Source: Planctomycetota bacterium (GTDB lineage Bacteria > Planctomycetota > UBA1135). Taken from it: 63,450 nt of DNA. The stretch spans positions 1-63,450 of the forward strand of contig JASMKM010000079.1 of the NCBI GenBank assembly GCA_030749235.1, given 5' to 3'. A program made the translations under genes and the position numbers. Under the pieces are notes generated by a model, which had not been told where the DNA came from, searched no databases, and saw nothing but the letters and a program-made list of their open reading frames with translations. The stretch's first letter is position 1. Every line of letters starts with the position of its first letter. Shown here in pieces: positions 1 through 63,315 of the stretch.

Positions 1-462
1 GAGTTTCGCCAAGCCATCGAACCCTTCGCGGTGCGCAAGGCTGCAAGGATGATCAGCGATGCTGAGTTGGGTAACCTTCGCAACCTTTGCGATGAGCAGC
101 GAAAACTAGCCGAGTCACTGGAGAAAGTTGAAGACTTCCTACAAGGCGAAGCCCTGGCGAATTGGTTCGCAATCGAGGAGCAATTCCATCGCACCTTGAT
201 TCGCGCCTCAAGGAATCGTCACATCGAAAACACCATTCGTCATTCTCGGGTACTGATCCAGATGTTTCACGGCCACCACGCCGTCGGCCTTCAGGTGAAT
301 CAAGAGATCGCCGACTCTACTTGGCGAGTCCACCTGCGCATCATCGAAGCGCTCGGCGCAGGCGATGGCGATGCCGCAGCACGATTCATGCTGGAAGCCT
401 TGGACCAAGGTGCACGCTCAACCTTGGCGGCGGCGCAGAAGAATGAACTCGCCTCACCGTGA
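1..462 (+). CDS. GntR-family transcriptional regulator, C-terminal FCD domain (5' partial)
   Basis: The frame is open from base 1 (E-F-R-Q-A-I-E-P-F-A-V-R-K-A-A) and runs 153 codons to TGA at 460-462, so the gene is cut by the window edge. The visible part is an all-helical FadR C-terminal (FCD) ligand-binding domain: an E-x-R-x-A-x-E-P-x-A-x-x-x-A-A opening, a central F-H-R-T-L-I-R-A-S-R-N segment and a final H-L-R-I-I-E-A-L-x-A-G-D-x-D-A-A repeat, all typical of FadR-like regulators. The winged-helix DNA-binding domain must lie upstream. The ligand is not readable, although FCD regulators usually respond to small organic acids. The GTG at 31 is an internal codon, not the start. Confidence 0.8.
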   Translation, partial: EFRQAIEPFAVRKAARMISDAELGNLRNLCDEQRKLAESLEKVEDFLQGEALANWFAIEEQFHRTLIRASRNRHIENTIRHSRVLIQMFHGHHAVGLQVNQEIADSTWRVHLRIIEALGAGDGDAAARFMLEALDQGARSTLAAAQKNELASP

Positions 463-501
463 GCCATCGGGTTAGCGCCTACCGGAAAGTGCAAGACGGC
501 C

Positions 502-2199
502 TTATGGTTTCACCCAGACGATCTCGCCAGCGAAGATTGTGATGATTGGTTGGCAATCTGCCAACCGATTGACCGGCAAAGTCATCAGGTCGCCTGAGAA
601 CACCACCATGTCGGCGCGGTAACCCGGCTGCAAACGACCGAGGTCATGTTCGCGGAAGGCTGCGTAGGCTGGCCAAGTCGTGAGCATGTTCAGCGCCTCT
701 TGGCGGCTCAGGTTCTGTCCGGGATACCAACCACCTTCAGGCTCCCCCGCAGGCGTTGTACGGGCCACTGCAGCGATGAATTGCGCGACCGTATCAAGAC
801 GTTCCACCGGTGCATCGGAACCTCCCGGAATGACGCAGCCTGCATCAAGGAAGCTGCGCCAGGCATAGGCGCCAAGGATGCGCTCCGGGCCCACCCGGTC
901 CTCCGCCCATGGCATGTCGCTGGTTTGGTGTTGGGCCTGCATCGCAGGGATTACCCCTAAATCAGCGAACCTCTGAAAGTCTTCTGGGTGAATGACTTGC
1001 GCATGCTCAATACGCCATCGATGATCTTCAATGGGAGTCCTGTCAGCAGCAGCTTGGGCGAGCACTTCGGCATAGACATCTAAGGTTTGGCGATTGCCAC
1101 GATCGCCGATTGCATGAGTAGCAACCTGGAATCCGGCGGCCATCGCATCCTCGACTATGGTGCGACGCTCAGCATCGGAGGTGACCAATAGGCCGTGATT
1201 GCCGTGGTCGTCGGAATACTCTTCCAAGAGGGCTGCGCCGCGTGAGCCCAGCGCGCCATCGCTGTAGATCTTCACCGCACGAATTGCCAAGGTGCCATTA
1301 CCTGCAACGTCGTGCAGGGGGCCAGCGGCGAAGCGACGCTGCAACAACTCCGGATCGGAGCCGGCCAACATCTCATGCAGCCGCAACTTCAATCGACCTT
1401 CAGTGGCCATCGACTCCAAGTAGGCCAAGGTGGCTTCGCCAGCGCCGGCATCGTGGACCGCAGTGATGCCCTCGGCATGGAAGGCTGTGGTGGCGGCACC
1501 GACGGCGCGCTTCACCGCCGCGACCGTTGTCTGAGGAGCAGCAGCCAGAATCAATGACTCGGCGTTGTCCACGAACACACCTGTGGGGTTACCGCCGGCA
1601 TCGCGCTCCAAGCGACCGCCGTCGGGGTCAGCCGTATCGCGTGTGATGCCCGCAGCCTCCATCGCTGCCTGATTGGCTAACAGGGCATGCCCGTCGACGC
1701 GCATCAGGACCACCGGTCGATTCGGAATCGCTTCGCTCAAGTCTTGGTGTGTGGGAAAGCCCTTCTCCTGCCAATCGTTCTGATCCCAGCCGCGCCCGAA
1801 CAACCACTCGCCTTCTGGCAGCTGAGTATGCCTGGCCACGGTCCGATCAATGACCTCGGCATAGGACGTGGTGCCCATCAAGTCCAGGTTCTCCAAGGCC
1901 GTGCCGACGCCAACCAGATGCGCATGGCCATCGGCAAATCCTGGATAGACCGGTCGCCCTTCCAAGTCGATGCGCTGCGTCTTGCCATTCGCCAAAGACA
2001 GCATCTGCTCGTCACTGCCGACCGCCAACACACGACCGTTTTGAATCGCGATTGCCTCCACCACCTGCTGGGGTTCCGCTTGCGTATAAATCTGCCCGTT
2101 GAAAAACACCATCTGCGGGTGCGGTTCAGGAAGTGGTGGATCCTGGCAGGAAGTCAGAGTCAAGGCGGAGGCAAGCAACAGGAGGGCACTCTTGGGCAT
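502..2199 (-). CDS. amidohydrolase family lipoprotein (YtcJ/LAF3-type, amidohydrolase_3)
   Basis: This 565-residue protein begins with a lipoprotein signal peptide (hydrophobic ALLLLASALTLTSC, lipobox L-T-S-C at about 15-18), so it is probably a membrane-anchored periplasmic enzyme. The mature part is a metal-dependent amidohydrolase: the beta-sandwich N-terminus V-x-N-G-x-I-Y-T, then the H-x-H metal motif in D-G-H-A-H-L, the S-D-G-A-L-G-S-R-G motif near 310, H-A-I-G-D-R-G-N near 365 and G-S-D-A-P-V near 460. Members of this COG1574-type family hydrolyse N-substituted amides or formamides. The exact substrate cannot be told. It runs convergent with the upstream GntR gene, and nothing beside it suggests a pathway. 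Confidence 0.85.
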   Translation of the reverse strand: MPKSALLLLASALTLTSCQDPPLPEPHPQMVFFNGQIYTQAEPQQVVEAIAIQNGRVLAVGSDEQMLSLANGKTQRIDLEGRPVYPGFADGHAHLVGVGTALENLDLMGTTSYAEVIDRTVARHTQLPEGEWLFGRGWDQNDWQEKGFPTHQDLSEAIPNRPVVLMRVDGHALLANQAAMEAAGITRDTADPDGGRLERDAGGNPTGVFVDNAESLILAAAPQTTVAAVKRAVGAATTAFHAEGITAVHDAGAGEATLAYLESMATEGRLKLRLHEMLAGSDPELLQRRFAAGPLHDVAGNGTLAIRAVKIYSDGALGSRGAALLEEYSDDHGNHGLLVTSDAERRTIVEDAMAAGFQVATHAIGDRGNRQTLDVYAEVLAQAAADRTPIEDHRWRIEHAQVIHPEDFQRFADLGVIPAMQAQHQTSDMPWAEDRVGPERILGAYAWRSFLDAGCVIPGGSDAPVERLDTVAQFIAAVARTTPAGEPEGGWYPGQNLSRQEALNMLTTWPAYAAFREHDLGRLQPGYRADMVVFSGDLMTLPVNRLADCQPIITIFAGEIVWVKP

Positions 2200-2271
2200 G
2201 GACTATGATGGCAAGATGCCCCTTGCCGCTCAACACGGGGGCGGCTGGTTCAAGAAACGGAAGCTACAAAC

Positions 2272-2497
2272 CTACTCACATGGATGCTTGAGCTTCACGT
2301 CGTGTGCTTCCAGGTAGGCACGCACCTTGTCGATCAACAGCTCCACCGCGGCAGTGCAGGTGTAACCAGTGGTGCGCCTGGAACTACGTCAGCGCATCGG
2401 GGTTGAAATCTGTGGCTGCCACTTGATGGCGCTCGGCCAGGTCAAGGACTATGCCACTGCCGACCATGCCGGTACCGAGGACGAGGATGGATGCCAT
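2272..2497 (-). pseudogene. remnant of a saccharopine-dehydrogenase-like gene (internally deleted)
   Basis: Reading the minus strand from ATG at 2497 gives 37 codons that form a clean Rossmann start (M-A-S-I-L-V-L-G-T-G-M-V-G-S-G-I-V-L-D-L, then A-x-D-F-N-P-D-A-L) and end at TAG 2386-2384. In another frame, 2389 to the TAG at 2274-2272 reads T-T-G-Y-T-C-T-A-A-V-E-L-L-I-D-K-V-R-A-Y and on to K-H-P. The first part matches the NAD(P)-binding N-terminus of saccharopine/lysine dehydrogenases. The second resembles the end of an enzyme gene and could be the far C-terminus of the same gene. I infer an internal deletion plus frame change. The N-terminal identification is firmer than that of the tail. 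Confidence 0.5.
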
Positions 2498-2534
2498 GCG
2501 GGGCGGAGTCTACAAAGACAGCTGGAGGCGCCCT

Positions 2535-3689
2535 TTACTGCCAGGTCAACTTGATGAAGCGCGGCCGGTAGATGTCGGCATAGCGGAAGTGATCCCAGAA
2601 GTCCCAGGCGTTGACGTTGTAGCTAACCAACAGCTCGCCAGGCTCGGACAGATGTGGATGGGCCTTGGCGTTGTAGGTGAAAACGCTAGGCACATCTGGC
2701 ACCGGGATATCCCACAGAATCTCGGTGTTCGTGAACGGCCCCCATGGGGTGGCGGAAGTTTTCATCGCGACCTTATTCGACATCGTGTCCAGCGAGAAGA
2801 TCAATGCGTATCGACCGTCGGGGATTGGGGTCACCGAGAGTTCATTGGAGATACGGCCGCTCATCTCAGCGCAACTGTGGATGTCTGGGTTCCAGGTGTT
2901 GCCATCCCAGAAACGGTACTCGCTGAAATTCTCGATGTGTTGCGGCAGCACACGTGCCACCAACAGCCTCTTATTCAGTGGGTCCTCCTGCGAACCATAA
3001 ACGTAGACATAGCCGTCCGGGTTCGGCGCGCCAGCCTCGACGGTGTTGGCCATAATGCCCGCGCCAAAGAATGCCCCGCTGTAGTTAGCCGACGGCGGGA
3101 TGGCCAATGGCGTATCGACTTCCGCCACCGCAGCACGCGTATACGGCCCATGTTTTGGCATCGTGAACATCGTCATGCCAGCGCGCTGGAAGTTCCAGCC
3201 GGGTTCACCGTCGTTGTGTTCCATACGCAGGGCCAACAGGTGGAACTTATCGCCGATGATTACACCGTCGGAGAACCAGTACCAATCGTCGGGTTGCGAC
3301 AGCGGCGTATTTGGCGTGAAGATTGCGCCCGGCTGCGCGCCATGATCGTCCCAGAAAAACTGCACACCCTCAGTCATGCCATCTTTCGGCATGAAGCCCA
3401 TAGTGTTGTTGACCATGGTGGTGTTGGAGCGTTCGCCGGCACCATTGACATCGCCGATGAAGGTGTCGCTGAACACGAACAGGCTGCCGGCACGACTCAC
3501 CCCGCCAGGGCTATCGTTGCCATCTAAAGGGAAGGAGAAGATGCCGTCGGCACCGGTCCACCCAGAAGTGGTGTCAAACTTGCTAGTCCACTCCGGTGCC
3601 ACATCTACTGTGTAAGTGGATTGAGCCGGAACAGGCGCAGCGCAAGCTGCCAGTGCCAACAACGGGAGTAGATTAGTGACGGACGACAT
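2535..3689 (-). CDS. secreted DUF5005/DUF4185-like beta-propeller protein
   Basis: The 384-residue product starts with a hydrophobic signal sequence (LLPLLALAAC, usable as a lipobox, followed by a possible A-P-A-Q signal peptidase I site at about 20-23). The body is rich in aromatic residues and blade-like repeats: G-W-T-G-A-D-G-I-F-S-F-P-L-D-G, L-F-V-F-S-D-T-F, D-D-W-Y-W-F-S-D-G, Y-V-Y-V-Y-G and L-L-V-S-Y-N-V-N. This fits the five-bladed propeller folds of glycosidase-like DUF4185/DUF5005 proteins, which are common in polysaccharide-degrading bacteria. No catalytic function is established for the family. Its start lies 17 nt inside the end of hutI on the same strand, so the two are probably co-transcribed although no functional link is obvious. 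Confidence 0.6.
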   Translation of the reverse strand: MSSVTNLLPLLALAACAAPVPAQSTYTVDVAPEWTSKFDTTSGWTGADGIFSFPLDGNDSPGGVSRAGSLFVFSDTFIGDVNGAGERSNTTMVNNTMGFMPKDGMTEGVQFFWDDHGAQPGAIFTPNTPLSQPDDWYWFSDGVIIGDKFHLLALRMEHNDGEPGWNFQRAGMTMFTMPKHGPYTRAAVAEVDTPLAIPPSANYSGAFFGAGIMANTVEAGAPNPDGYVYVYGSQEDPLNKRLLVARVLPQHIENFSEYRFWDGNTWNPDIHSCAEMSGRISNELSVTPIPDGRYALIFSLDTMSNKVAMKTSATPWGPFTNTEILWDIPVPDVPSVFTYNAKAHPHLSEPGELLVSYNVNAWDFWDHFRYADIYRPRFIKLTWQ

Positions 3690-53796: not shown

Positions 53797-54279
53797 ATGA
53801 CGAACCCTAGCATGTACTACCTAGTCCTCACTGCCGCTTTATACCTCTTTTGGGTGCTCCTTTCAGGGCATTACACCGCCCTGATCCTGAGCCTAGGGGC
53901 GGCCTCGGTACTGCTCGTGGTCTGGTTCCTGCGACGCATGGATCGCATCGACGGCGAGGCTAGCTTCATGCCCATCACACCCGGCCTTGTGGCCTACCTC
54001 TGGTGGCTGATGTGCGCAGTCATCAAGGCCAACATCGTTGTCGTGAAGCGGATTTGGGCACCGAATCTGCCCATCAGCCCCACGTGGACACGTCTTGAAA
54101 CGGAAATCAATACACCACTGAAGAAGACACTCTACGCAAACTCCATCACGCTCACCCCTGGGACCCTAACCACCAACGCCCACCGCGATCATCTGTGGGT
54201 GCATTGCCTGACCCAAGACAATGCTGCAAAGCTACGCGAAGGCGAAATGGAAGGTCGGATTCGGAAGTTAAAGGTCTAA
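53797..54279 (+). CDS. mrpE: Mrp-type cation/proton antiporter subunit E
   Basis: MrpE (160 residues): two to three N-terminal TM helices (Y-Y-L-V-L-T-A-A-L-Y-L-F-W-V-L-L-S-G near 6, then Y-T-A-L-I-L-S-L-G near 26, then V-A-Y-L-W-W-L-M near 64) and a C-terminal cytosolic domain with the conserved Y-A-N-S-I-T-L-T-P-G-T-L-T near 111. It is needed for complex assembly. ATG 53797 overlaps a TAGAAT hexamer (53793-53798); ATG 53812 may be the actual start on a nearly leaderless mRNA. It is the first gene of the eight-gene operon. Confidence 0.9.
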   Translation: MTNPSMYYLVLTAALYLFWVLLSGHYTALILSLGAASVLLVVWFLRRMDRIDGEASFMPITPGLVAYLWWLMCAVIKANIVVVKRIWAPNLPISPTWTRLETEINTPLKKTLYANSITLTPGTLTTNAHRDHLWVHCLTQDNAAKLREGEMEGRIRKLKV

Positions 54280-54280
54280 G

Positions 54281-54595
54281 ATGTTCCTCGCTGCGGCACT
54301 CGCCATCCTCGCGAAGATGGCACTGGCACTGATTCGGGCTTGCATGGGTCCGACGGCCTATGACCGCATGCTCGCCACCAACATGTTTGGCACCAACACA
54401 GTGCTGCTAATCGCCGTCGGTGGCTATGCCATCGGATGGAACAGTTTCGTCGACGTGGCGCTGTTGTACGCGATGGTAAATTTCGTCAGCACCGTGGCAA
54501 TCATGCGTTTCTTCGAACGCCACACGGCCGATCGCGGCCGCTCCGAACCCCATGAAGCTGGCCCTCGGGTCGCCGACGTAGAGGAGGCGAAATGA
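54281..54595 (+). CDS. mrpF: Mrp-type antiporter subunit F
   Basis: MrpF (104 residues) has three TM helices, with R-A-C-M-G-P-T-A-Y-D-R-M-L-A-T-N near 19-34, the family's central loop, and V-D-V-A-L-L-Y-A-M-V-N-F-V near 58. The C-terminus is a hydrophilic tail (E-P-H-E-A-G-P). It follows mrpE by 1 nt and overlaps mrpG by ATGA. In the antiporter it contributes to the small-subunit belt. Confidence 0.88.
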   Translation: MFLAAALAILAKMALALIRACMGPTAYDRMLATNMFGTNTVLLIAVGGYAIGWNSFVDVALLYAMVNFVSTVAIMRFFERHTADRGRSEPHEAGPRVADVEEAK

Positions 54596-54969
54596 GCCTA
54601 TTCATCGAAATCCTCAGTTGGATCTGCCTGGTTTCTGGCGGCTTCCTGTGCATCTCCGGTGGCGTCGGTCTGCTGCGCCTACCTGACTTCTTCGCTCGTG
54701 TGCATGCAGCCAGCGTCACAGAGACCTTGGGCGCGCCGCTGGTGCTCAGCGGAGTCATGCTGCAGACTGGTTGGTCGCTGGACACCATCAAGCTGCTGAT
54801 GGTCGCACTTTTCGTGCTGGCCACCGCCCCCACTGCGACTCATGCCATGGTCAAGGCCGCGCTGCATGATGGCCAAACCCCATTCGAAGCCGACGACCCA
54901 GGAGCGAAGGCCGCTCCCCCATTGGAAGATGGCGGGCCAGTCGAGGAGGAGGATCCATCGAGCAACTGA
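54592..54969 (+). CDS. mrpG: Mrp-type antiporter subunit G
   Basis: MrpG (125 residues) shows three TM helices, with the family pattern G-G-V-G-L-L-R-L-P-D-F-F-A-R-V-H-A-A-S near 23-41, then T-L-G-A-P-L-V-L near 45. The C-terminal 35 residues form an acidic, proline-rich tail (P-L-E-D-G-G-P-V-E-E-E-D). The tail encodes the GAGGAGGA stretch at 54943-54950 that could serve as ribosome site for the next gene, which likely overlaps it. Confidence 0.88.
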   Translation: MSLFIEILSWICLVSGGFLCISGGVGLLRLPDFFARVHAASVTETLGAPLVLSGVMLQTGWSLDTIKLLMVALFVLATAPTATHAMVKAALHDGQTPFEADDPGAKAAPPLEDGGPVEEEDPSSN

Positions 54970-54977
54970 TCAATCTA

Positions 54978-55937
54978 GTGTTGCTGACATGCTTGGCAAT
55001 CACCGCTTTGGTCGCGATCCGCAGGAACGATCTCTTCGCGGTGGTCATGCTGTTCGGCATCTACAGCTTCCTGACTGCGGTGCTGTTCATGAACCTCCAC
55101 GCGGTGGATGTGGCCTTCACCGAGGCCGCTGTCGGCGCTGGCATCTCTACGGTTTTGATGCTGAGTACTCTGCGCCTGACCAAGCGCTACGAAGCCGCCC
55201 GCCGACGCAATCCCATCCTGCCGCTGCTGGTGGTGGGCGTGACCGGTGCGGCCTTGGTCTATGGCATGCTCGACGCCCCGCGCTTCGGTGATCCTATGGC
55301 GCCGGTGCATCAACATATGGCGCCGCGTTTCGTGCAGGAATCGCCCACCGAAGTCGGCGTGCCCAACATGGTCACCTCGGTGCTGGCCAGCTATCGCGGC
55401 TATGACACCCTCGGCGAGGTCATGGTGATCTTCACAGCGGGGCTCGCGGTGCTTCTTTTGTTGGGTATCCGCGAAGGACAGAACCACCGCCTAGGACGCC
55501 TGGCAATCGGCGACACCTTGGTCCTGCGCGTGGTGGTCAAGGTTCTGATCGCATTCATCATGCTTTATGCCTTGTACGTGCAGTTCCATGGTGACTTTGG
55601 TGCAGGTGGAGGATTCCAGGCCGGCGTAATCTTTGCCACCGCCTTTGTGATCTACGACCTCATCTTCGGCGAGGCCGACGCGCGCCGCGTCATGCCCACG
55701 CATTGGCTGGGACGCCTGGCCGCTATGGGCATCTTCCTCTACGCCGGAACCGGTGTGGCTAGCATGTTCCTCGGCCACGCCTTCCTAGATTACTCGGCAT
55801 TGGGCCATGACCCGGTGCACGGCCAACACCTCGGCATCCTGCTGATTGAACTCGGTGTCGGCATCACAGTCTTCGCGGTCATCTTGACCATCTTTCATGC
55901 CTTCTCCGGAATGCGCAGACCCGATCAGGTGAGCTGA
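54978..55937 (+). CDS. mrpB: fused MrpA C-terminal (DUF4040/MbhD-like) and MrpB subunit
   Basis: From GTG 54978 the product is 319 residues. The first about 75 (D-L-F-A-V-V-M-L-F-G-I-Y-S-F near 18, T-E-A-A-V-G-A-G-I-S-T near 48) match the DUF4040 region at the MrpA C-terminus, i.e. archaeal MbhD. The last 140 are an MnhB domain (F-H-G-D-F-G-A-G-G-G-F-Q-A-G-V near 203). The middle (E-S-P-T-E-V-G-V-P-N-M-V-T near 121) resembles MbhE-like linkers. Upstream codons I-E-Q-L-I-N-L also fit the family, and a strong GAGGAGGA precedes ATC 54957, so the actual start may be that non-standard codon. Confidence 0.85.
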   Translation: MLLTCLAITALVAIRRNDLFAVVMLFGIYSFLTAVLFMNLHAVDVAFTEAAVGAGISTVLMLSTLRLTKRYEAARRRNPILPLLVVGVTGAALVYGMLDAPRFGDPMAPVHQHMAPRFVQESPTEVGVPNMVTSVLASYRGYDTLGEVMVIFTAGLAVLLLLGIREGQNHRLGRLAIGDTLVLRVVVKVLIAFIMLYALYVQFHGDFGAGGGFQAGVIFATAFVIYDLIFGEADARRVMPTHWLGRLAAMGIFLYAGTGVASMFLGHAFLDYSALGHDPVHGQHLGILLIELGVGITVFAVILTIFHAFSGMRRPDQVS

Positions 55938-55939
55938 GG

Positions 55940-56302
55940 ATGTACAACTATTGGCTCGCAGTGTTCTTGATGATGGCTGGCTTCTACGTCGTCATCGCGC
56001 AGGGCAACTTGGTCAAGAAGATCATTGGCCTAGGCATGTTCCAGACATCGGTATTCATCCTGTACGTCTCGATGGGCAAGGTCGAAGGCGGCAGCGCACC
56101 GATCGTGACGGAAGGCGTCGAGGTCTATTCCAACCCAGTACCGCATGTGCTAATGCTGACAGCGATTGTCGTCGGTGTGGCCACCACAGCGGTGGGCCTT
56201 TCGTTGGCGGTACGTATCAACGAGGCCTACGGCAGCGTCGAGGAAGACGACATCCAAGAGCTCGATGACGAGCTCGACAAGATCCAGGAGAGTGGCCTAT
56301 GA
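55940..56302 (+). CDS. mrpC: Mrp-type antiporter subunit C (NuoK-like)
   Basis: MrpC (120 residues) is the NuoK homologue with three TM helices. It shows F-Y-V-V-I-A-Q-G-N-L-V-K-K-I-I-G-L-G-M-F-Q-T near 15-36, P-V-P-H-V-L-M-L-T-A-I-V-V-G near 66-79 and A-L/G-L-S-L-A-V-R near 87, all standard. The tail is acidic (E-E-D-D-I-Q-E-L-D-D-E-L-D). ATGA coupling joins it to the next subunit. Confidence 0.9.
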   Translation: MYNYWLAVFLMMAGFYVVIAQGNLVKKIIGLGMFQTSVFILYVSMGKVEGGSAPIVTEGVEVYSNPVPHVLMLTAIVVGVATTAVGLSLAVRINEAYGSVEEDDIQELDDELDKIQESGL

Positions 56303-57810
56303 GTTTCAGCGACCACTTCCCGGTTTTGGTGGTGTTGATTCCACTGCTCGCTGCCCCACTGGCTTCCTTGTTCACCAAAGGCCGCGCCGCATGGGCCTTG
56401 GCCTTGGCGGCCACTTGGGCCAGTTTCCTAATCTCCTGCCTGTTGCTGAAGCAGGTGCTCACCACCGGCACTGTGCGTTACTACATGGGCGGTTGGAAAC
56501 CGCCATGGGGTATCGAATACCGTGTCGACGTGCTCGGTGGTTTCGTCCTGTTGATCGTCACGGCCATCGCCGCCTTGGTGCTCACCTTTGGCCGACGCAG
56601 CATCAAGAGCGACCTTCCGGAAGGTCGCAGGTCGATCTTCTACGCCGCATTCCTGCTGTGCTTCACCGGCTTAGCCGGCATGACTATCACCGGCGACGCC
56701 TTCAACGTCTTCGTCTTCCTCGAGATTTCGTCGCTGTCCTCCTATGCGCTGATCAGCATGGGCCGCGACCGTCGCGCGCTGAATGCCGCCTTCCAGTATC
56801 TGATTATGGGGTCGATTGGTGCCACCTTCATCCTGATTGGTATCGGCTTTCTCTACATGATGACCGGTACCTTGAATATGGATGACTTGGCGCAGCGCCT
56901 GCCGGCGGTCTCTGACACCAACACCATCCGCGCCGGCTTCGCCTTCTTGACCGTCGGCTTCGGCCTGAAGTTGGCCTTGTTCCCGCTGCACCTGTGGTTG
57001 CCGAATGCTTATGCCTACGCCCCATCGGCAGTCAGCGCATTCTTGGCCGCCACCGCCACCAAGGTCGCGATCTACTCCTTGCTGCGCTTCCTGCTCGGCA
57101 TCTTCGGATTCGGCTTCGCGCTCGGTGCCATGCCGTTCGACATGATCCTGATCGGGCTTGGTTTGGCTGCGATCCTGTCGGCTTCCCTGGTGGCAGTCTT
57201 CCAGAAGAACGTCAAGCGCATGCTGGCCTATTCCAGCGTGGCTCAGGTTGGTTACATCGCGCTGGGGATTGGCCTGGCTTCACAGACGGGCCTAAGCGCA
57301 GCGGTCTTACACCTGTTCAACCATGCAATGATGAAGGGCGCTTTGTTCATGGCACTTGGTGCGATTGCCTTCCGCATCGGCTCGAGCCGTATCGAGAATC
57401 TCGCCGGCCTAGGCAAGCGCATGCCCTTTACGATGGCTGCCATTGCGATCGCAGGCCTAAGCCTAATCGGAATTCCAGGAACCGCAGGCTTCGTCAGCAA
57501 ATGGTTTCTGGTGCTGGGAACCTTGGAGCAAGGGCTGTGGCCACTGGCCGCGCTGATTCTGTTCGGTTCCTTCCTGGCCTTGATCTACGTCGGCCGCATC
57601 CTGGAGGCGGCTTACTTCGGCACACCGAAAGATGGGATTGAAGCGCGTGAGGCACCCATCGGCATGTTGATCCCGATCTGGATCCTCGTGATTGCCAACA
57701 TCTACTTTGGCCTGCACACCGACTTCAGCTATGGCCTTGCGGAACGTGCGGTCGCGGACTTGTTACCGGCTGCACGAGCCACTGTCGACGCAGCAGAGGT
57801 CATGCCATGA
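56299..57810 (+). CDS. mrpD: Mrp-type antiporter subunit D (NuoN/M-like), copy 1
   Basis: This 503-residue, roughly 14-TM subunit is a proton/cation channel of the NuoL/M/N family. The TM5 glutamate is present in F-V-F-L-E-I-S-S-L-S-S-Y-A-L near 134-147, the TM7 lysine in G-L-K-L-A-L-F-P-L-H-L-W-L-P near 216, and a second lysine in A-T-K-V-A-I-Y near 253. It keeps the broken-helix G-T-A-G-F-V-S-K-W near 392. Of the three such subunits here it is nearest to MrpD. It overlaps its neighbours by 4 nt on both sides. Confidence 0.92.
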   Translation: MSFSDHFPVLVVLIPLLAAPLASLFTKGRAAWALALAATWASFLISCLLLKQVLTTGTVRYYMGGWKPPWGIEYRVDVLGGFVLLIVTAIAALVLTFGRRSIKSDLPEGRRSIFYAAFLLCFTGLAGMTITGDAFNVFVFLEISSLSSYALISMGRDRRALNAAFQYLIMGSIGATFILIGIGFLYMMTGTLNMDDLAQRLPAVSDTNTIRAGFAFLTVGFGLKLALFPLHLWLPNAYAYAPSAVSAFLAATATKVAIYSLLRFLLGIFGFGFALGAMPFDMILIGLGLAAILSASLVAVFQKNVKRMLAYSSVAQVGYIALGIGLASQTGLSAAVLHLFNHAMMKGALFMALGAIAFRIGSSRIENLAGLGKRMPFTMAAIAIAGLSLIGIPGTAGFVSKWFLVLGTLEQGLWPLAALILFGSFLALIYVGRILEAAYFGTPKDGIEAREAPIGMLIPIWILVIANIYFGLHTDFSYGLAERAVADLLPAARATVDAAEVMP

Positions 57811-59309
57811 ACGCGGAGATGATCCTGCAGCTGTTGATATTGGTACCGGTGCTGTGCGCGATTTGCATCGTACTTTTGCGTCGCAACCCCAACGTGCGCG
57901 AGGCCGTCACCTTGGTTTTCGGTGGCGTGCTGTTCGCGATGGTGGTCATGCTGGCGACGAGAATATCGTGGGGCGACCCACCGCTGGTGATGCTGGCCGA
58001 ACCCTTCCCAGGGCTGTCACTCGCTCTTTCGCCGGAACCGCTCGGTATCTTGTTCGCATTGATCGCCAGTTTCTTGTGGCCAATCACCGCAATCTATGCA
58101 ATCGGCTATATGCGCGGGCATGGCGAATCGAACCAGACGCGCTTCTTCGCCTGCTTCGCTCTGTCGATTGCCGCCACTATCGGTATCTCGATGGCGGCCA
58201 ACATGCTCACGCTGTTTGTGTTCTACGAACTGCTGACCTTGGCCACCTTCCCGCTGGTCACCCACGCCGGTACGCCGGATGCGAAACGGGCCGGCCGAAT
58301 CTACCTCGGCATCTTGATGGGTACCTCGGTGGCGCTGATGTTGCTCGCCACCATCTGGACATATCAGATCACCGGCACGCTAGATTTCACCCGCGGCGGC
58401 GTCTTCCCCGAAGGCACCGACAAGGGCGTGATGAGCATCCTGCTACTGCTGTTCATCTTCGGTACCGGTAAGGCGGCATTGATGCCCTTCCATCGTTGGC
58501 TACCCGCGGCGATGGTGGCCCCCACTCCGGTCTCGGCCTTGCTGCACGCGGTGGCCGTAGTGAAGGCAGGTGTGTTCACTGTGCTTAAGGTTGCGATCTA
58601 CCTATTCGGTATCGATTCGATCGCCGACCTACAGGGCGCTCACTTCCTTTCCTATGCTGCCGCCTTCACCATCTTGGTCGCGTCGATCGTCGCCATGGGC
58701 AAGGACAACCTGAAAGCGCGACTGGCTTATTCGACCATCAGTCAACTGGCCTACATCGTGCTTGGCGCCATGATCGGTACGTCGGCCGGTGTAATCGGCG
58801 GCAGCATGCACATCGCCATGCACGCCTTCGGCAAGATCACCTTGTTCTTCTGCGCAGGCGCGATTCTGGTGGCCACCCATCGCAAGAATGTCAGCGAACT
58901 GGATGGCATCGGCAAACGCATGCCGTTGACCATGGCGGCCTTCACCATCGGCGCGCTGTCGATCATCGGCCTGCCTCCCATGGGCGGTACCTGGAGCAAA
59001 TGGATGTTGATCCAAGGCACGCTGGATGCCGGCGCTTGGATCCTGATGGTGGTCCTGATGATCTCTTCGCTGCTCAACATCGCTTACCTGCTGGTCATCC
59101 CCATGCGCGCCTTCTTCGCTTGCGAGAAATCGAAGGAAGACCCAACCAAGTGCATCCACCCAGACGCGCGCGACCACACCGAGGTTGCCGAGGTCGATGA
59201 AGCGCCCGCAGCTTGCCTCATTGCAATCGGGGTTACCGCAATCGGTTGTATCGCCTTGTTCATCTTCCCCGATGGGCTCTACCAGCTCGCACAGGAGGTC
59301 GCCCGATGA
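57807..59309 (+). CDS. NuoL/M-like antiporter subunit, copy 2
   Basis: A 500-residue, about 14-TM relative of MrpA/D and NuoM. The key acidic and basic positions are kept: F-V-F-Y-E-L-L-T-L-A-T-F-P-L-V near 135-149, F-G-T-G-K-A-A-L-M-P-F-H-R-W-L-P near 218-233, and V-V-K-A-G-V-F near 252. A C-terminal cytosolic loop carries the residues E-K-S-K-E-D-P-T-K-C-I-H-P. It resembles MbhH/MrpD-type subunits and could take the place of the MrpA N-terminal part, which is otherwise missing. Confidence 0.88.
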   Translation: MNAEMILQLLILVPVLCAICIVLLRRNPNVREAVTLVFGGVLFAMVVMLATRISWGDPPLVMLAEPFPGLSLALSPEPLGILFALIASFLWPITAIYAIGYMRGHGESNQTRFFACFALSIAATIGISMAANMLTLFVFYELLTLATFPLVTHAGTPDAKRAGRIYLGILMGTSVALMLLATIWTYQITGTLDFTRGGVFPEGTDKGVMSILLLLFIFGTGKAALMPFHRWLPAAMVAPTPVSALLHAVAVVKAGVFTVLKVAIYLFGIDSIADLQGAHFLSYAAAFTILVASIVAMGKDNLKARLAYSTISQLAYIVLGAMIGTSAGVIGGSMHIAMHAFGKITLFFCAGAILVATHRKNVSELDGIGKRMPLTMAAFTIGALSIIGLPPMGGTWSKWMLIQGTLDAGAWILMVVLMISSLLNIAYLLVIPMRAFFACEKSKEDPTKCIHPDARDHTEVAEVDEAPAACLIAIGVTAIGCIALFIFPDGLYQLAQEVAR

Positions 59310-59614
59310 CCGAGAACAAGGAGAAGACCTACCTGTTCGACAATCCCAGGAACGTCAAGTTGGTCATCCGTGGCCTGCTGGTGGTGTGCATCATCCTGGT
59401 AATCCTGGACCTGATAATCCATCGCCATTCGGTGCACCCATGGGAGCACATCTTTGCGTTCTACCCGGTCTATGGATTCGTCTCGTGCGTGGTGTTGGTA
59501 TTGCTGGCGAAGGAACTGCGCAAGTTGGTGATGCGCAGCGAGAACTACTACGACGCTTATCCCGACATTGACCCTTTCAATGACGACGGCAGCCAGGAGG
59601 ATCACGATGCCTGA
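59306..59614 (+). CDS. small two-TM subunit within the antiporter operon
   Basis: The 102-residue protein starts at ATG 59306, which overlaps the previous stop, behind a strong AGGAGG. TM1 is V-I-R-G-L-L-V-V-C-I-I-L-V-I-L (about 19-37) and TM2 is Y-P-V-Y-G-F-V-S-C-V-V-L-V-L-L (about 53-70). Histidine-rich H-R-H-S-V-H-P-W-E-H lies between, and the tail is acidic (D-I-D-P-F-N-D-D). I do not recognise it as a canonical Mrp subunit. Its fixed place between two channel subunits, with overlaps on both sides, suggests a structural or linker subunit. Confidence 0.8.
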   Translation: MTENKEKTYLFDNPRNVKLVIRGLLVVCIILVILDLIIHRHSVHPWEHIFAFYPVYGFVSCVVLVLLAKELRKLVMRSENYYDAYPDIDPFNDDGSQEDHDA

Positions 59615-61301
59615 AGCTCTCGTCACCCTGCCCCTATTCCTCGGCGCCTTGCTGGCCGGGATCACCCGTGGCAAGTTACGTTCGATTCTGATGCTGGCTG
59701 CGCCGGTGGTCGGCGCTTACCTGGTCTACACGCTCACTCCAGGCCAGAACTTCGAGACCACCCTATTCGACAAGCCACTCACCCCGGTCCGCGTCGACAG
59801 CTTGTCAATCTTGTTCGGTTATCTGTTCCACCTCGCCGCCTTCATCGGCGTGGTCTATTCGCTGCATCTGAAGGATACGCCGCAGTTGGTGGCCTCCTTG
59901 GCTTACGCGGCCTGTGCGGTCGGCGCGGTCTTCGCCGGCGACCTATTGGCGCTATTCCTCTATTGGGAAGGGTTGGCGATCACATCCTCAATCCTGGTCT
60001 TCGCCCGACGCAGCGGCCGTTCGCTCGGCGCCGGCACCCGATACCTGCTCGTGCAGGTCTTCTCGGGCGTGCTGCTGTTGGCCGGAACCATCGCCTGGGC
60101 ACATGGCGGCAACGGTCTTGACTTCAACCACATCGGTTTGGAATCGATGGCCGGCAAGCTCATCTTCGTGGCCTTTGGCATCAAGGCGAGCTTCCCACTG
60201 GTGCATAACTGGCTGACCGACTCCTACCCCGAGGCCACGCCGAGCGGCACGGTATTCCTGAGCGCCTTCACCACCAAGGTGGCGATCTATGCGTTGGCAC
60301 GAGGCTATGCCGGTACCGAACAGCTGATCTACATCGGGGTCATGATGGCCTGCTTCCCGATCTTCTACGCGGTGATTGCCAACGACCTGCGCCGCGTATT
60401 GGCCTACAGTCTGATTAACCAGCTTGGCTTCATGGTGGTCGGCATCGGCGTCGGCACCGAACTGGCGCTGAATGGGGCTGTCGCGCATGCCTTCAACGAC
60501 GTGCTGTTCAAGGGCCTGCTGATGATGAGCATGGGTGCTGTGCTGCATGTCACCGGCGAGATGCGCGGTTCGGAACTCGGCGGCCTGTACAAGAAGATGC
60601 CGAAGACTGCCATCCTGTGCATGATTGGCGCAGCATCAATCTCGGCCTTCCCCTTGTTCAACGGGTTCGTCAGCAAGTCGATGATCGTCACGGCGGTACT
60701 CGAGGAGGGGCATGAGTGGGTATGGCTCGGCCTGCTGTTCGCCGCCGCCGGCGTGTTCCACCACGCGGGCATCAAAATTCCCTTCTTCGCCTTTTTTGGC
60801 CACAACTCTAAACATATCGAGACCGCCCACGAGCCGCCGAAGAACATGATCATCGCCATGACGATTGCAGCTTGCCTCTGCATCGGCATCGGTTGCTTCC
60901 CACGTACGCTTTACTCGCTGCTCCCCTACGCCACCGATTACAGCCCTTACGATGCCAGTCACATCCTGGCACAGATGCAGCTGCTGGCGTTCTCGGCCTT
61001 GGCCTTCTTGAGCCTGAAGCTCTACGAAATTTATCCGCCGGAATTGCGCTCCACCAACCTGGACGCTCAATGGGTTTACCGACGCTTCGCCCCTACGCTG
61101 GCGCGCTGGGTTCTGCACTTCGTGATACGAATCGACACGGCCTTCCGGCGTACTGCGCTGAGGCTAATGGGCCGCGGTGTCCTGAGCATGGTCCGCCACC
61201 ACCGCTCTGAGGGCGTGCTGGCACGCAGCTGGCCGACTGGCAGCATGGTCTTCTGGGTGGCGGTCCTCCTGGGCTCTACCCTGCTGATGTACTATGTTTG
61301 A
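59607..61301 (+). CDS. NuoL/M-like antiporter subunit, copy 3
   Basis: ATG 59607 (AGGAGG 59595-59600) gives 564 residues. It has the catalytic Glu in F-L-Y-W-E-G-L-A-I-T near 124, the Lys in G-I-K-A-S-F-P-L-V-H-N-W near 191 and a further T-T-K-V-A-I-Y near 219. The C-terminus extends with an amphipathic region (W-V-Y-R-R-F-A-P-T-L near 490) and a final TM (S-M-V-F-W-V-A-V-L-L near 545), like NuoL/MrpA ends with their lateral helix. It is the last gene of the operon. Confidence 0.88.
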   Translation: MPEALVTLPLFLGALLAGITRGKLRSILMLAAPVVGAYLVYTLTPGQNFETTLFDKPLTPVRVDSLSILFGYLFHLAAFIGVVYSLHLKDTPQLVASLAYAACAVGAVFAGDLLALFLYWEGLAITSSILVFARRSGRSLGAGTRYLLVQVFSGVLLLAGTIAWAHGGNGLDFNHIGLESMAGKLIFVAFGIKASFPLVHNWLTDSYPEATPSGTVFLSAFTTKVAIYALARGYAGTEQLIYIGVMMACFPIFYAVIANDLRRVLAYSLINQLGFMVVGIGVGTELALNGAVAHAFNDVLFKGLLMMSMGAVLHVTGEMRGSELGGLYKKMPKTAILCMIGAASISAFPLFNGFVSKSMIVTAVLEEGHEWVWLGLLFAAAGVFHHAGIKIPFFAFFGHNSKHIETAHEPPKNMIIAMTIAACLCIGIGCFPRTLYSLLPYATDYSPYDASHILAQMQLLAFSALAFLSLKLYEIYPPELRSTNLDAQWVYRRFAPTLARWVLHFVIRIDTAFRRTALRLMGRGVLSMVRHHRSEGVLARSWPTGSMVFWVAVLLGSTLLMYYV

Positions 61302-61431: not shown

Positions 61432-61893
61432 ATGACTTGTTCATCCATCATGAATACCAATCTGACCACTGTATCCGCGGATACTAAGGTCGGAGCAACT
61501 ATCAATCTGCTGGTAAAGAATCACTTCCGCTCGATACCAGTGGTCAGCGACGAAGGCAGGTTCCTCGGTCAGTTCGGCGTGCACACAGTGTTGGGGTTGT
61601 CGGCTCCACTGGGTAGCAAGATTGCTCGCGAAGGCCCAATGACTGACATCAGCTTTATGGATGACAACATGGACGACCTGCGTCGGCGCCTGGCCAAGGT
61701 GTGGAATAAACCGGTACGCGAATATGTCTACAAGTCGGTGCCCTCGCTGCACCCCAATGACTCCCTGACCCGGACCGTCTTGGCGTTGGCCAAGACCCAG
61801 GACAACATCACCGTTGTCGATCCAGACACCCGCATCTTAGTTGGCATTGTGAGCTACTGGGATGTGCTGGATCACTTGTCTGACGGACAGTAA
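61432..61893 (+). CDS. stand-alone CBS-pair protein
   Basis: A 153-residue protein made of two CBS repeats: first M-T-C-S-S-I-M-N-T-N-L-T-T-V-S, V-G-A-T-I-N-L-L-V-K-N and R-S-I-P-V-V-S-D-E-G-R-F-L-G-Q near 34; second V-P-S-L-H-P-N-D-S-L-T-R-T near 104 and I-T-V-V-D-P-D-T-R-I-L-V-G-I-V-S near 125. CBS pairs bind adenine nucleotides. A 3-nt gap to the permease suggests that it senses energy state for that transporter. Confidence 0.82.
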   Translation: MTCSSIMNTNLTTVSADTKVGATINLLVKNHFRSIPVVSDEGRFLGQFGVHTVLGLSAPLGSKIAREGPMTDISFMDDNMDDLRRRLAKVWNKPVREYVYKSVPSLHPNDSLTRTVLALAKTQDNITVVDPDTRILVGIVSYWDVLDHLSDGQ

Positions 61894-61896
61894 GCC

Positions 61897-63315
61897 ATGA
61901 ACCTGCTCGCATGCTTGCTCCAACATGGAGCGGGGGCTGCCGCTACACACAGCGAACCCCACGTAATCTTCGGAATGAATCCCTTGTGGGTGGCCGCCAC
62001 TGTATTCGTGGCTTCTTACGCCGTCATCATGTCGGAGAAGTACAACCGCGCCATGGTTGCGCTGCTCGGCGGCGGATTGATGATCCTGCTCGGCGTGCTC
62101 GACCAGCACACCGCCATCGGCGCCATCGACTGGAATACCCTCGGCCTGTTGTGCGGCATGATGATGATTGTGGCAATCACTCGCCGCAGCGGTGTCTTTC
62201 AGTTCCTGGCGATCTGGTCGGCCAAGAAGGTGAAGGCCAGCCCGTGGGGCATCCTGGTCATGCTCTCACTGGTCACGGCGATCCTGTCGGCACTGCTCGA
62301 CAACGTGACCACGGTGTTGCTGATCGCGCCGGTGACCTTGCTGATCACCGAGGAACTCAACATCAAGCCTTATCCCTTCCTGTTCGCTGAAATTCTTTTC
62401 TCGAACATTGGCGGTACTGCCACGCTAATCGGTGACCCGCCCAACATTCTGATCGGCTCGTTGGTGGACACCATAACCTTCAACGATTTCCTGATCCACG
62501 TCGCACCGATTGTGCCATTGGTCTTCATCGCCACACTGTTCCCGATCTGGTTGATCTGGGGACGCAAGCTAAAGGCGACCGACCGCGCGCGCGAACGTGT
62601 GATGCGTTTCCACGAGGTCGACGCCATCAAGGACGTCCCCCTGCTGAAGAAGTCGCTGTTCGTGTTGGCCTTGGTCCTTGTCGGATTCGTCGCCGGTCAC
62701 CCGGTGGGCTTGGAGCCCGCCACGGTGGCCATGACCGGCGCCGCTTTGTTGCTGCTGCTCGACAACCTGAAGAACAACGCCGAGGAACAGGACAAGAGCG
62801 TTCACCACACAGCTGGGGAAGTCGAGTGGGTCACCATCTTCTTCTTCGTCGGCCTGTTCGTGATCGTCGGCGCACTCGAGAACGCCGGTGGCCTGGAGCT
62901 GCTTGCCGGGCAGGTTCTCAACCTGACCGCCGACGCCGCCGATCCCGCTGGAGTCACCTCCACCCTGTCAATGGCAGTGCTGTGGATCTCGGCGGTCGCG
63001 AGCGCGGTGGTGGACAATATCCCCTTCGTGGCGACGATGATCCCGACGCTGCAGGAGACCTTTGTGCAGTTGAAGGAAAGTGGCATGGGCCTCAGCTATG
63101 ACCAGGAACACGCCGTGTGGTGGTCGCTTTCGCTGGGAGCTTGTCTCGGTGGTAACGGCAGTCTGATCGGCGCCAGCGCCAACCTGATCGTGGCGGGCTT
63201 CGCCGAACGCGCAGGTCACTCGATCCGTTTCATGACCTTCCTGAAGACGGCCTTCCCGATGATGTTGATGTCGGTCGCGATCGCGGCGGTCTACCTCTGG
63301 ATGCGCTACCTGTAG
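61897..63315 (+). CDS. ArsB/NhaD/P-protein-type (ion transporter superfamily) permease
   Basis: The 472-residue protein has about 12 TM helices. The IT-superfamily duplication is visible: L-D-N-V-T-T-V-L-L-I-A-P-V near 130 with S-N-I-G-G-T-A-T-L-I-G-D-P-P-N-I near 168-183, and V-V-D-N-I-P-F-V-A-T near 370 with G-G-N-G-S-L-I-G-A-S-A-N near 411. Such proteins move sodium, dicarboxylates, arsenite or sulfate. The G-D-P-P-N motif puts it near the ArsB/P-protein/NhaD branch. Its place after the antiporter and CBS genes suggests Na+ or anion homeostasis. Confidence 0.82.
   Translation: MNLLACLLQHGAGAAATHSEPHVIFGMNPLWVAATVFVASYAVIMSEKYNRAMVALLGGGLMILLGVLDQHTAIGAIDWNTLGLLCGMMMIVAITRRSGVFQFLAIWSAKKVKASPWGILVMLSLVTAILSALLDNVTTVLLIAPVTLLITEELNIKPYPFLFAEILFSNIGGTATLIGDPPNILIGSLVDTITFNDFLIHVAPIVPLVFIATLFPIWLIWGRKLKATDRARERVMRFHEVDAIKDVPLLKKSLFVLALVLVGFVAGHPVGLEPATVAMTGAALLLLLDNLKNNAEEQDKSVHHTAGEVEWVTIFFFVGLFVIVGALENAGGLELLAGQVLNLTADAADPAGVTSTLSMAVLWISAVASAVVDNIPFVATMIPTLQETFVQLKESGMGLSYDQEHAVWWSLSLGACLGGNGSLIGASANLIVAGFAERAGHSIRFMTFLKTAFPMMLMSVAIAAVYLWMRYL

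Follow-up and report, generated by a model that had tools for sequence, protein, structure and literature searches.

The 63,450-nucleotide contig JASMKM010000079.1 (GenBank assembly GCA_030749235.1) of a Planctomycetota bacterium of the GTDB lineage UBA1135, which makes up the whole of the window analysed here, carries at positions 53797–61301 an operon of nine forward-strand genes. It probably encodes a complete cation/proton antiporter of the group 3 Mrp kind in which three channel subunits, where two are usual, follow one another, a reading to which a probability of about 0.78 is given. The genes follow the order E, F, G, fused B, C, D1, D2, S and D3, in which D1, D2 and D3 are the channels and S is a small protein; at six of the eight junctions the genes overlap by 4–13 bases, and at the other two they are 1 and 2 bases apart. 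The three-channel antiporter is proposed because of the family matches of the proteins, a gene order shared by 66 of 80 loci, the conserved glutamates and lysines of the channels, the motifs of the cation path and the lack of a PF00346 match in the host genome as far as it is assembled.

Gene content and relationship to known Mrp systems

The Pfam names of the operon proteins are MNHE, MrpF_PhaF, PhaG_MnhG, a single protein with MbhD, MbhE and MnhB, Oxidored_q2 (MrpC) and, three times, Proton_antipo_M. D3 and the fused B protein pass the curated NCBIfam cut-offs of NF009310 and NF009161, respectively, far beyond chance, which means that the databases already know both as antiporter subunits. 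No long MrpA is encoded, its NuoL-like channel part and its MbhD/MbhE part sitting in separate genes, and the Pfam and NCBIfam domain calls give an E-F-G-B-C-D order as in Mbh and Mbs; on both points the first-pass annotation of this DNA, made from the letters alone, was right. All the open reading frames it listed are also present, with the correction that the small gene for a protein with two transmembrane helices (TM), which it had placed last, lies between D2 and D3. The start of D3 is the ATG at 59607.

Group 3 Mrp systems are defined as having no mrpA gene and at least one mrpD-like gene (PMC8415708; papers with PMC numbers are cited from excerpts throughout), and the operon has no mrpA, has mrpD-like genes and contains subunits B, C, E, F and G. 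The stand-alone group 3 Mrp of Pyrococcus furiosus, mrpEFGBB'CD, is alike in the lack of mrpA and in its E-F-G-B-C-D order but has a single channel subunit (PMC8415708). At the mrp locus of 'Ca. Nitrospira alkalitolerans', as in the window, two extra NuoM/NuoL-like genes follow mrpD, and nhaB is found in the same region; S is not mentioned in the excerpted descriptions of these two systems (PMC8415708, PMC7784846). The membrane arms of archaeal Mbh and Mbs share with the operon the A-B-C-D/E/F-G-H order, a D1 near MbhH/MbsH and the MbhD-type TEAxxGA motif, whereas the operon has no redox module and has two more channels and S. Compared with group 1/2 Mrp (MrpABCDEFG), subunits B to G and the ion-path residues are conserved, but the MrpA gene is absent and three separate channel genes and S are present.

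The first-pass annotation had likened the gene order to that of archaeal Mbh and had proposed a survey of gene order in related genomes. Among the best 80 of at least 578 confirmed matches to a profile of D3 relatives in GTDB genomes, S and D3 are present in 80 loci, D2 in 79 and all nine genes in 66, and the order is identical in every one of these 66, many of which carry B as two separate genes. Of the 14 loci without the full set, 12 are truncated because the contig stops less than 5 kb upstream of D3, and two differ (L087 and L110). Judging from record titles, the 80 loci span Pseudomonadota, Gemmatimonadota, Verrucomicrobiota, Nitrospirota, Planctomycetota and other phyla. The three-channel layout is a widespread bacterial kind, already published as group 3 Mrp, and a reading of it as unusual or archaeal finds no support.

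Closer to the host, D3 orthologues (at least 47% identity) occur in 12 of 61 related genomes, its own included. Only one of the five other genomes of the genus (G001) matches D3, and four have no match; identity is 79% to D3 of G013 and G016 and 73% to that of the family-mate G006. The closest relatives outside the Planctomycetota, among the matches listed, belong to Thiohalocapsa and another gammaproteobacterium and are 70% identical, and this patchy occurrence suggests horizontal spread of the operon.

Table 1. Features of the operon, with positions in the window
Feature	Position	Strand	Evidence
MrpE	53797..54279	+	PF01899, 108 bits; T120-P121 corresponds to T113-P114 of B. pseudofirmus MrpE
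MrpF	54281..54595	+	PF04066; D28-R29 corresponds to D32-R33 of B. pseudofirmus MrpF
MrpG	54592..54969	+	PF03334; TIGR01300 above cut-off; P80 corresponds to P81 of B. pseudofirmus MrpG
Shine-Dalgarno-like AGGAGGAGGA followed by ATC (likely start of fused B), within the 3' end of mrpG	54944..54959	+	Sequence; codon at the same position across loci
Fused MbhD-MbhE-MnhB (C-terminal part of MrpA, and MrpB)	54957..55937	+	PF13244, PF20501, PF04039; NF009161, 395.4 bits (cut-off 272)
MrpC (NuoK-like)	55940..56302	+	PF00420; top PDB match MbsG, 86 bits
Channel D1, MrpD/MbhH/MbsH/NuoN type	56299..57810	+	PF00361, 216 bits; tree; top PDB matches MbsH and MbhH
Channel D2, own clade on the MrpA/NuoL/NuoM side	57807..59309	+	PF00361, 186 bits; clade support 100/100
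S, a small protein of an unnamed family (102 aa; two helices predicted)	59306..59614	+	Present in 80/80 loci; no convincing Pfam, NCBIfam or PDB match; directly 5' of D3 in 53/53 matches
Channel D3 (NF009310/PRK12668), 564 aa, NuoL-like C-terminal lateral helix and last TM	59607..61301	+	NF009310, 673.7 bits (cut-off 564); model and structure matches
DNA encoding residues 487-532 of D3, a predicted lateral helix of 46 residues	61065..61202	+	AlphaFold2 model; helical moment

Conserved residues of the proton and cation paths

All three channels of the window keep the glutamate of TM5 and the lysine of TM7 (E142/K224 in D1, E141/K222 in D2 and E121/K193 in D3), as had been noticed at first, and in alignments of their relatives these residues are nearly universal. 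Counting only rows in which the residue is aligned, and no gaps, Glu and Lys are kept in 86 of 86 and 87 of 87 rows of D1, and in 87 of 87 and 88 of 88 rows of D2. Among the 91 rows of D3, the TM5 Glu is present in 90, the TM7 Lys in 88, and the lysines of TM8 and TM12 in 91 each; the latter two are also kept wherever they are aligned in D1 (90 rows) and D2 (88 rows). Rows below 250 bits (below 100 for D1) were excluded, and L021 (of the family-mate G006) and L033, whose stretch recurs base for base within L021, are one contig that is counted twice here and in the motif counts below.

The residues of the cation path that were shown by mutation in Bacillus pseudofirmus (PMC5703873) include D32-R33 of MrpF, T113-P114 of MrpE and P81 of MrpG, all of which have counterparts in the window, and the R773-E780 pattern recurs in the fused B with the same spacing in an alignment to the Dietzia MrpA and MbsE chains. 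Across loci, the MrpF motif GPxxxDR is found in 72 of 74, the MrpE motif TPG in 74 of 74, and YRGxDTLGE of the fused B in 70 of 79. The Mbh-type motif TEAxxGA is present in 65 of the 79 B genes and TQxxVE in none, compared with four of four group 1/2 MrpA references that have the latter.

Origin of the three channels

In the careful tree (64 rows), D1, D2 and D3 are each monophyletic, with support values of 98/95, 100/100 and 100/100, and a branch supported at 96/98 separates D1, MrpD, MbhH, MbsH and NuoN from D2, D3, MrpA, NuoL, NuoM, Hyf and MbsH'. The quick tree (89 rows, 25 of which were omitted from the careful one) gives the same split and joins D2 to MrpA, NuoL and HyfD at 80; the careful tree leaves open the placement of D2 relative to these three and the base of the D2 clade. 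For five of the reference rows, the PDB supplies only part of the sequence. The nearest PDB sequences are MbsH and MbhH for D1, MbhH and MrpA for D3, and NdhF and NuoL chains, followed by an MrpA, for D2.

The first-pass annotation had held that trees placing the channels with complex I rather than with Mrp/Mbh would speak against its reading. This is not what the trees show: D1 groups with MrpD, MbhH, MbsH and NuoN, D2 and D3 form separate clades on the MrpA/NuoL/NuoM side, and none of the three is nested inside complex I in either tree. Local triplication of one channel gene was considered as an origin of the row, and the corresponding single clade of D1, D2 and D3 is rejected by the approximately unbiased (AU) test (p 0.004), whereas neither a sister relationship of D2 and D3 (p-AU 0.166) nor a grouping of D2 with MrpA (p-AU 0.174) is. 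D2 and D3 are therefore no additional copies of MrpD, and D2-S-D3 is common to one class of complex I.

A predicted lateral helix at the end of D3

The AlphaFold2 model of D3 (mean predicted local distance difference test score, pLDDT, 83.3) contains a helix of 46 residues, 487–532, which is followed by the last TM at 544–563. Over residues 481–540 the block means of pLDDT are 48, 72, 88, 86, 73 and 53, lower at both ends of the helix, and the helical moment exceeds that of shuffled sequences in its sliding-window mean (p 0.0065), but not in its maximum (p 0.14). The top Foldseek matches of the model are the MrpA chains 7qru_A, 9a6h_A and 6z16_A. With VIA-align, residues 1–564 of D3 superpose on NuoL of complex I (8e9g_L) with a Z-score of 43.5, 553 aligned residues and a root-mean-square deviation (rmsd) of 11.0, a value that is taken to reflect a differently placed helix in the model, and the channel core alone superposes on MrpD (7qru_D) with an rmsd of 2.3 over 436 residues. 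In the Mrp structure, the helix of MrpA braces the complex, and the authors state that the two-channel unit could be extended to three or four (PMC7419157). Since D3 is predicted to carry a lateral helix of the NuoL/MrpA type, it would be placed at the distal end of the complex, where the predicted helix would brace D2 and D1.

The small protein S and the D2-S-D3 cassette

In 294 Planctomycetota genomes, the D3 model finds 53 places above its cut-off in 51 genomes, and the S profile likewise finds 53 places in 51 genomes. Every S match lies directly before a D3 gene: 51 precede a D3 above the cut-off (gap of −14 to 118 bases), and two precede fragmentary D3 genes (G094, and G261 at a contig end). 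Conversely, S accompanies 51 of the 53 D3 genes above the cut-off, and of the two without it, one probably represents the second part of the gene that is broken in G261. The conserved core of S reads HRH..HPWE...FY..YGFV.CV.LVL.AK..R...MR.EDYYD. Nothing convincing was found for it in Pfam (best E-value 0.0016, with 32 members scanned, B12D in five of them and otherwise scattered names), in NCBIfam (best 0.0023) or by PDB profile (best 0.6), none of which gave a match that would name it, and S is not mentioned in the excerpts of the open-licence papers searched. A search of plasmids with S gives 22 records, which belong to Rhizobium, Sinorhizobium, Pararhizobium and Ensifer; among the 20 matches listed, seven have an annotation under S, always 'hypothetical protein', in six of them together with the overlapping D gene. 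The S family is unnamed and is new in this reading.

In Ensifer and Sinorhizobium plasmids, D2, S and D3 are located between NuoK and NuoM in an operon that has no NuoL and continues through NuoN and NuoA to NuoG (Ensifer) or to NuoF, where the Sinorhizobium stretch ends. This corresponds to the 'green complex I' of rhizobia, in which two MrpD-like subunits take the place of NuoL (PMC9040806) and whose MrpD2 is described with a C-terminal lateral helix, like the one predicted for D3. The D2-S-D3 order is the same as in the window, and D2 and D3 fall in the same clades, but the rhizobial loci are complex I operons in which E-F-G-B was not seen, whereas the window has no genes for the Nuo peripheral arm. 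The Complex_I_3 of 'Ca. Manganitrophaceae' resembles the green complex I by description and, unlike the window, is a complex I operon. Because S stays with D2 and D3 in complex I operons in which E, F, G and B are not seen, it most likely binds the D2-D3 end.

The 56 Planctomycetota loci that were classified (54 further loci together with L028 and L029) comprise 41 among Mrp genes without complex I genes, five among complex I genes and ten in neither context. Of the five, L029 has the order NuoJ, K, D2, S, D3, M, N, A, B, C, D, EF, which L123, L124 and L125 follow as far as their contigs reach; the contig of L172 starts at S and has NuoA after D3. The presence of the cassette in complex I operons beyond the rhizobia and Manganitrophaceae is new here. 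Several of the ten loci with neither context are cut by contig ends, and they include L127, L147, L160 and L176. At L176, a single long frame (1–3525) has matches to D2 and to D3 and may be a fusion of the two; next to it is a weak match to NuoK. At L087 (8079–11626), which has D2-S-D3, and at L110 (5411–7523), L147 (8445–10692) and L160 (8749–10813), which have S-D3, nothing else in the stretches examined matched Mrp or complex I. On a haloarchaeal plasmid (L120), the order is E-F-G-DUF4040-MnhB-C-D1-D2-D3, and its D3 branches outside all others; the idea that S is fused to this D2 was dropped, as its tail consists of an acidic stretch and an ordinary TM, without the S motif by eye.

Counter-evidence and alternative readings

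Several observations weigh against a complete antiporter with three working channels and S as a regular part. The proline motif of MrpG occurs in only 58 of 75 loci. In B. pseudofirmus, replacing Gln70 of MrpC by alanine impairs the formation of the complex (PMC5703873); the corresponding residue is His in 72 of 79 loci, which may be characteristic of this type of Mrp. D2-S-D3 stands alone in L087, as does S-D3 in L110, L147 and L160, and D1-D2-S-D3 lacks any match to E-F-G-B-C in L127. The model of S is weak (predicted template modelling score, pTM, 0.42), one of the 53 D3 proteins above the cut-off (G293) has no detectable S, and L120 has no separate S gene, so that S is not universal. Lastly, the TM7 Lys is replaced by Asn in three of the 91 D3 rows, all of them from Nitrospirota (L104, L107 and L108), which means that D3 need not conduct everywhere. 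It could then be that only one or two channels conduct, with D2 or D3 being mainly structural and the stoichiometry that of an ordinary Mrp, and the group 3 Mrp of P. furiosus, which is implicated in the pH response with its single channel (PMC8415708), points the same way. The charged residues of D1, D2 and D3 are, however, kept in nearly all rows, and a purely structural part would not need them, which makes this version unlikely.

The host genome is an incomplete metagenome-assembled genome (MAG) of 2.41 Mb in which D1, D2 and D3 are the only PF00361 proteins. The first-pass annotation had seen no hydrogenase subunit and had held that a redox module just outside the window would speak against an Mrp. 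None lies beside the operon on the whole contig, nor do any Nuo peripheral-arm genes, and PF00346 (the NuoD family, the large subunit of complex I and its hydrogenase kin) has no match in this genome, which is 89.8% complete, while PF00374 was not searched. The operon could still supply the membrane arm of a pump driven by redox chemistry, with the genes for electron transfer at another site in the genome: its proteins are homologous to the membrane arms of MBH, MBS and complex I, D2-S-D3 also occurs inside complex I operons, and a redox partner may lie in the roughly 10% of the genome that is missing, a further point against the antiporter. Besides the absence of PF00346, the remainder of the operon is Mrp E-F-G-B-C, and the Planctomycetota loci are found among Mrp genes far more often than among complex I genes, which leaves a redox-driven pump highly improbable and the three-channel antiporter preferred.

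A further proposal concerns physiology. On another contig of the host (C70, L177), nqrA, B, C and F score above their cut-offs in NCBIfam, and between nqrC and nqrF are the genes of two Rnf-Nqr proteins; among the families searched, Na+-NQR is the sole NADH:quinone pump of the genome, with no complex I match. The c-subunit of the ATP synthase reads VEGATFF, which does not have the Ser/Thr after the Glu that is the signature of Na+ binding, and so looks presumably proton-type. The antiporter might couple the Na+ circuit of Na+-NQR to the H+ circuit of the ATP synthase, possibly in either direction, although the four genomes of the genus without a D3 match show the antiporter to be dispensable there, and this role is possible but on balance doubtful.

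As for the flanks, murJ lies upstream on the opposite strand. Downstream, at 61432–63315, are a CBS-domain protein and an ArsB/NhaD-like transporter, whose top NCBIfam match, MamN, is under the cut-off, and the contig ends after them. Among 12 loci of relatives and the 80 loci, this pair directly follows the operon only in the window and in the genus-mate G001 (L019, 6163–8049), and it was rejected as a conserved neighbour on these grounds; weak NhaD-like matches lie elsewhere in L076 and L107.

A probable non-standard start codon for fused B

No ATG stands where fused B would be expected to begin; the window reads AGGAGGAGGATCC there, followed by ATC GAG CAA CTG ATC. The most likely start, from sequence comparison, is the ATC at 54957 rather than the GTG at 54978. 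The aligned start could be read in 74 of 89 loci (the duplicate L033 was dropped; L048 and L050 are close relatives, and the loci are not all independent) and is ATC, ATA or ATT in 38, ATG, GTG or TTG in 25 and another codon in 11. A match to the ribosome-binding site is found 3–12 bases 5' of the odd start in 37 of 38 loci, whereas shifted positions give 6, 2 and 4; for the ordinary starts, the figures are 21 of 25 compared with 2, 10 and 3. Where an in-frame stop lies upstream, 17 of 51 B genes lack any NTG codon as far as residue +6, compared with 2 of 502 for the other eight genes together, for which this count was used because their N-termini vary and the aligned-start tally is too noisy.

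Odd starts are seen in relatives of the window (L019–L022, L034–L036, L039, L048, L098 and others) and in records not labelled as MAGs, and are thus not just MAG errors: Paraglaciecola hydrolytica S66 (ATT) and Zhongshania aliphaticivorans (ATA), both without an NTG, Sedimentitalea nanhaiensis DSM 24252 (ATA) and Neptuniibacter PT1, a complete genome in which the ATC is followed by an ATG four codons later. In the further Planctomycetota loci, the aligned B starts are mostly unclear, and only one of 41 has no NTG within five codons, so that the odd start is not general there. The mrpG stop overlaps the odd start at +10 in 21 of 37 loci and at +1 (ATAG) in six, and in five it lies 14–108 bases upstream. 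These five argue against a programmed frameshift from mrpG, which is unlikely, no slippery run being seen by eye; four of them (L039, L048, L050 and L092) also have no NTG codon.

A non-standard start codon can act as a translational brake, infC being the standard example. The odd codon may regulate the output of fused B in a similar manner: an AUC, AUA or AUU behind a strong ribosome-binding site, usually overlapping mrpG, would set the dose of the coupling subunit against the rest. The literature searched holds, by title, no case of a transporter with a non-standard start, and that of fused B is new in this reading. Gene starts that are called automatically are probably wrong for fused B.

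Proposed mechanism and significance

How the complex would assemble, in what order its subunits lie in the membrane, which ion it moves, in which direction and at what stoichiometry, and what S does, we infer as follows. According to the published Mrp model, H+ influx through D1, D2 and D3 would drive the export of a cation, probably Na+, through the E-F-G-B part. The parts of MrpA would be dispersed: its C-terminal MbhD/MbhE is in the fused B, D2 and D3 would take over its channel function, and D3, at the far end, would also supply the lateral brace and the final TM. S would be a structural subunit of the D2-D3 end. As the first-pass annotation proposed, three working channels may also alter the ion stoichiometry compared with that of an Mrp with two. 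Tentatively, and at slightly less than even odds, these observations can be joined into one picture that extends over several phyla, in which D2-S-D3 is a portable pumping cassette, with S near-obligate, that is used in Mrp, in NuoL-less complex I and sometimes alone, and the AUC/AUA/AUU start of fused B is a brake conserved in many lineages.

The operon bears on the number of protons moved per cation in Mrp-type machines and on how complex I was built up from exchangeable pumping modules, and a three-channel Mrp and a complex I with D2-S-D3 in common form a natural pair for the study of module exchange and stoichiometry. If the joint picture is true, S would be a missing subunit of both Mrp and complex I, and the AUC/AUA/AUU start would be a rare non-standard start kept across phyla in a transport operon.

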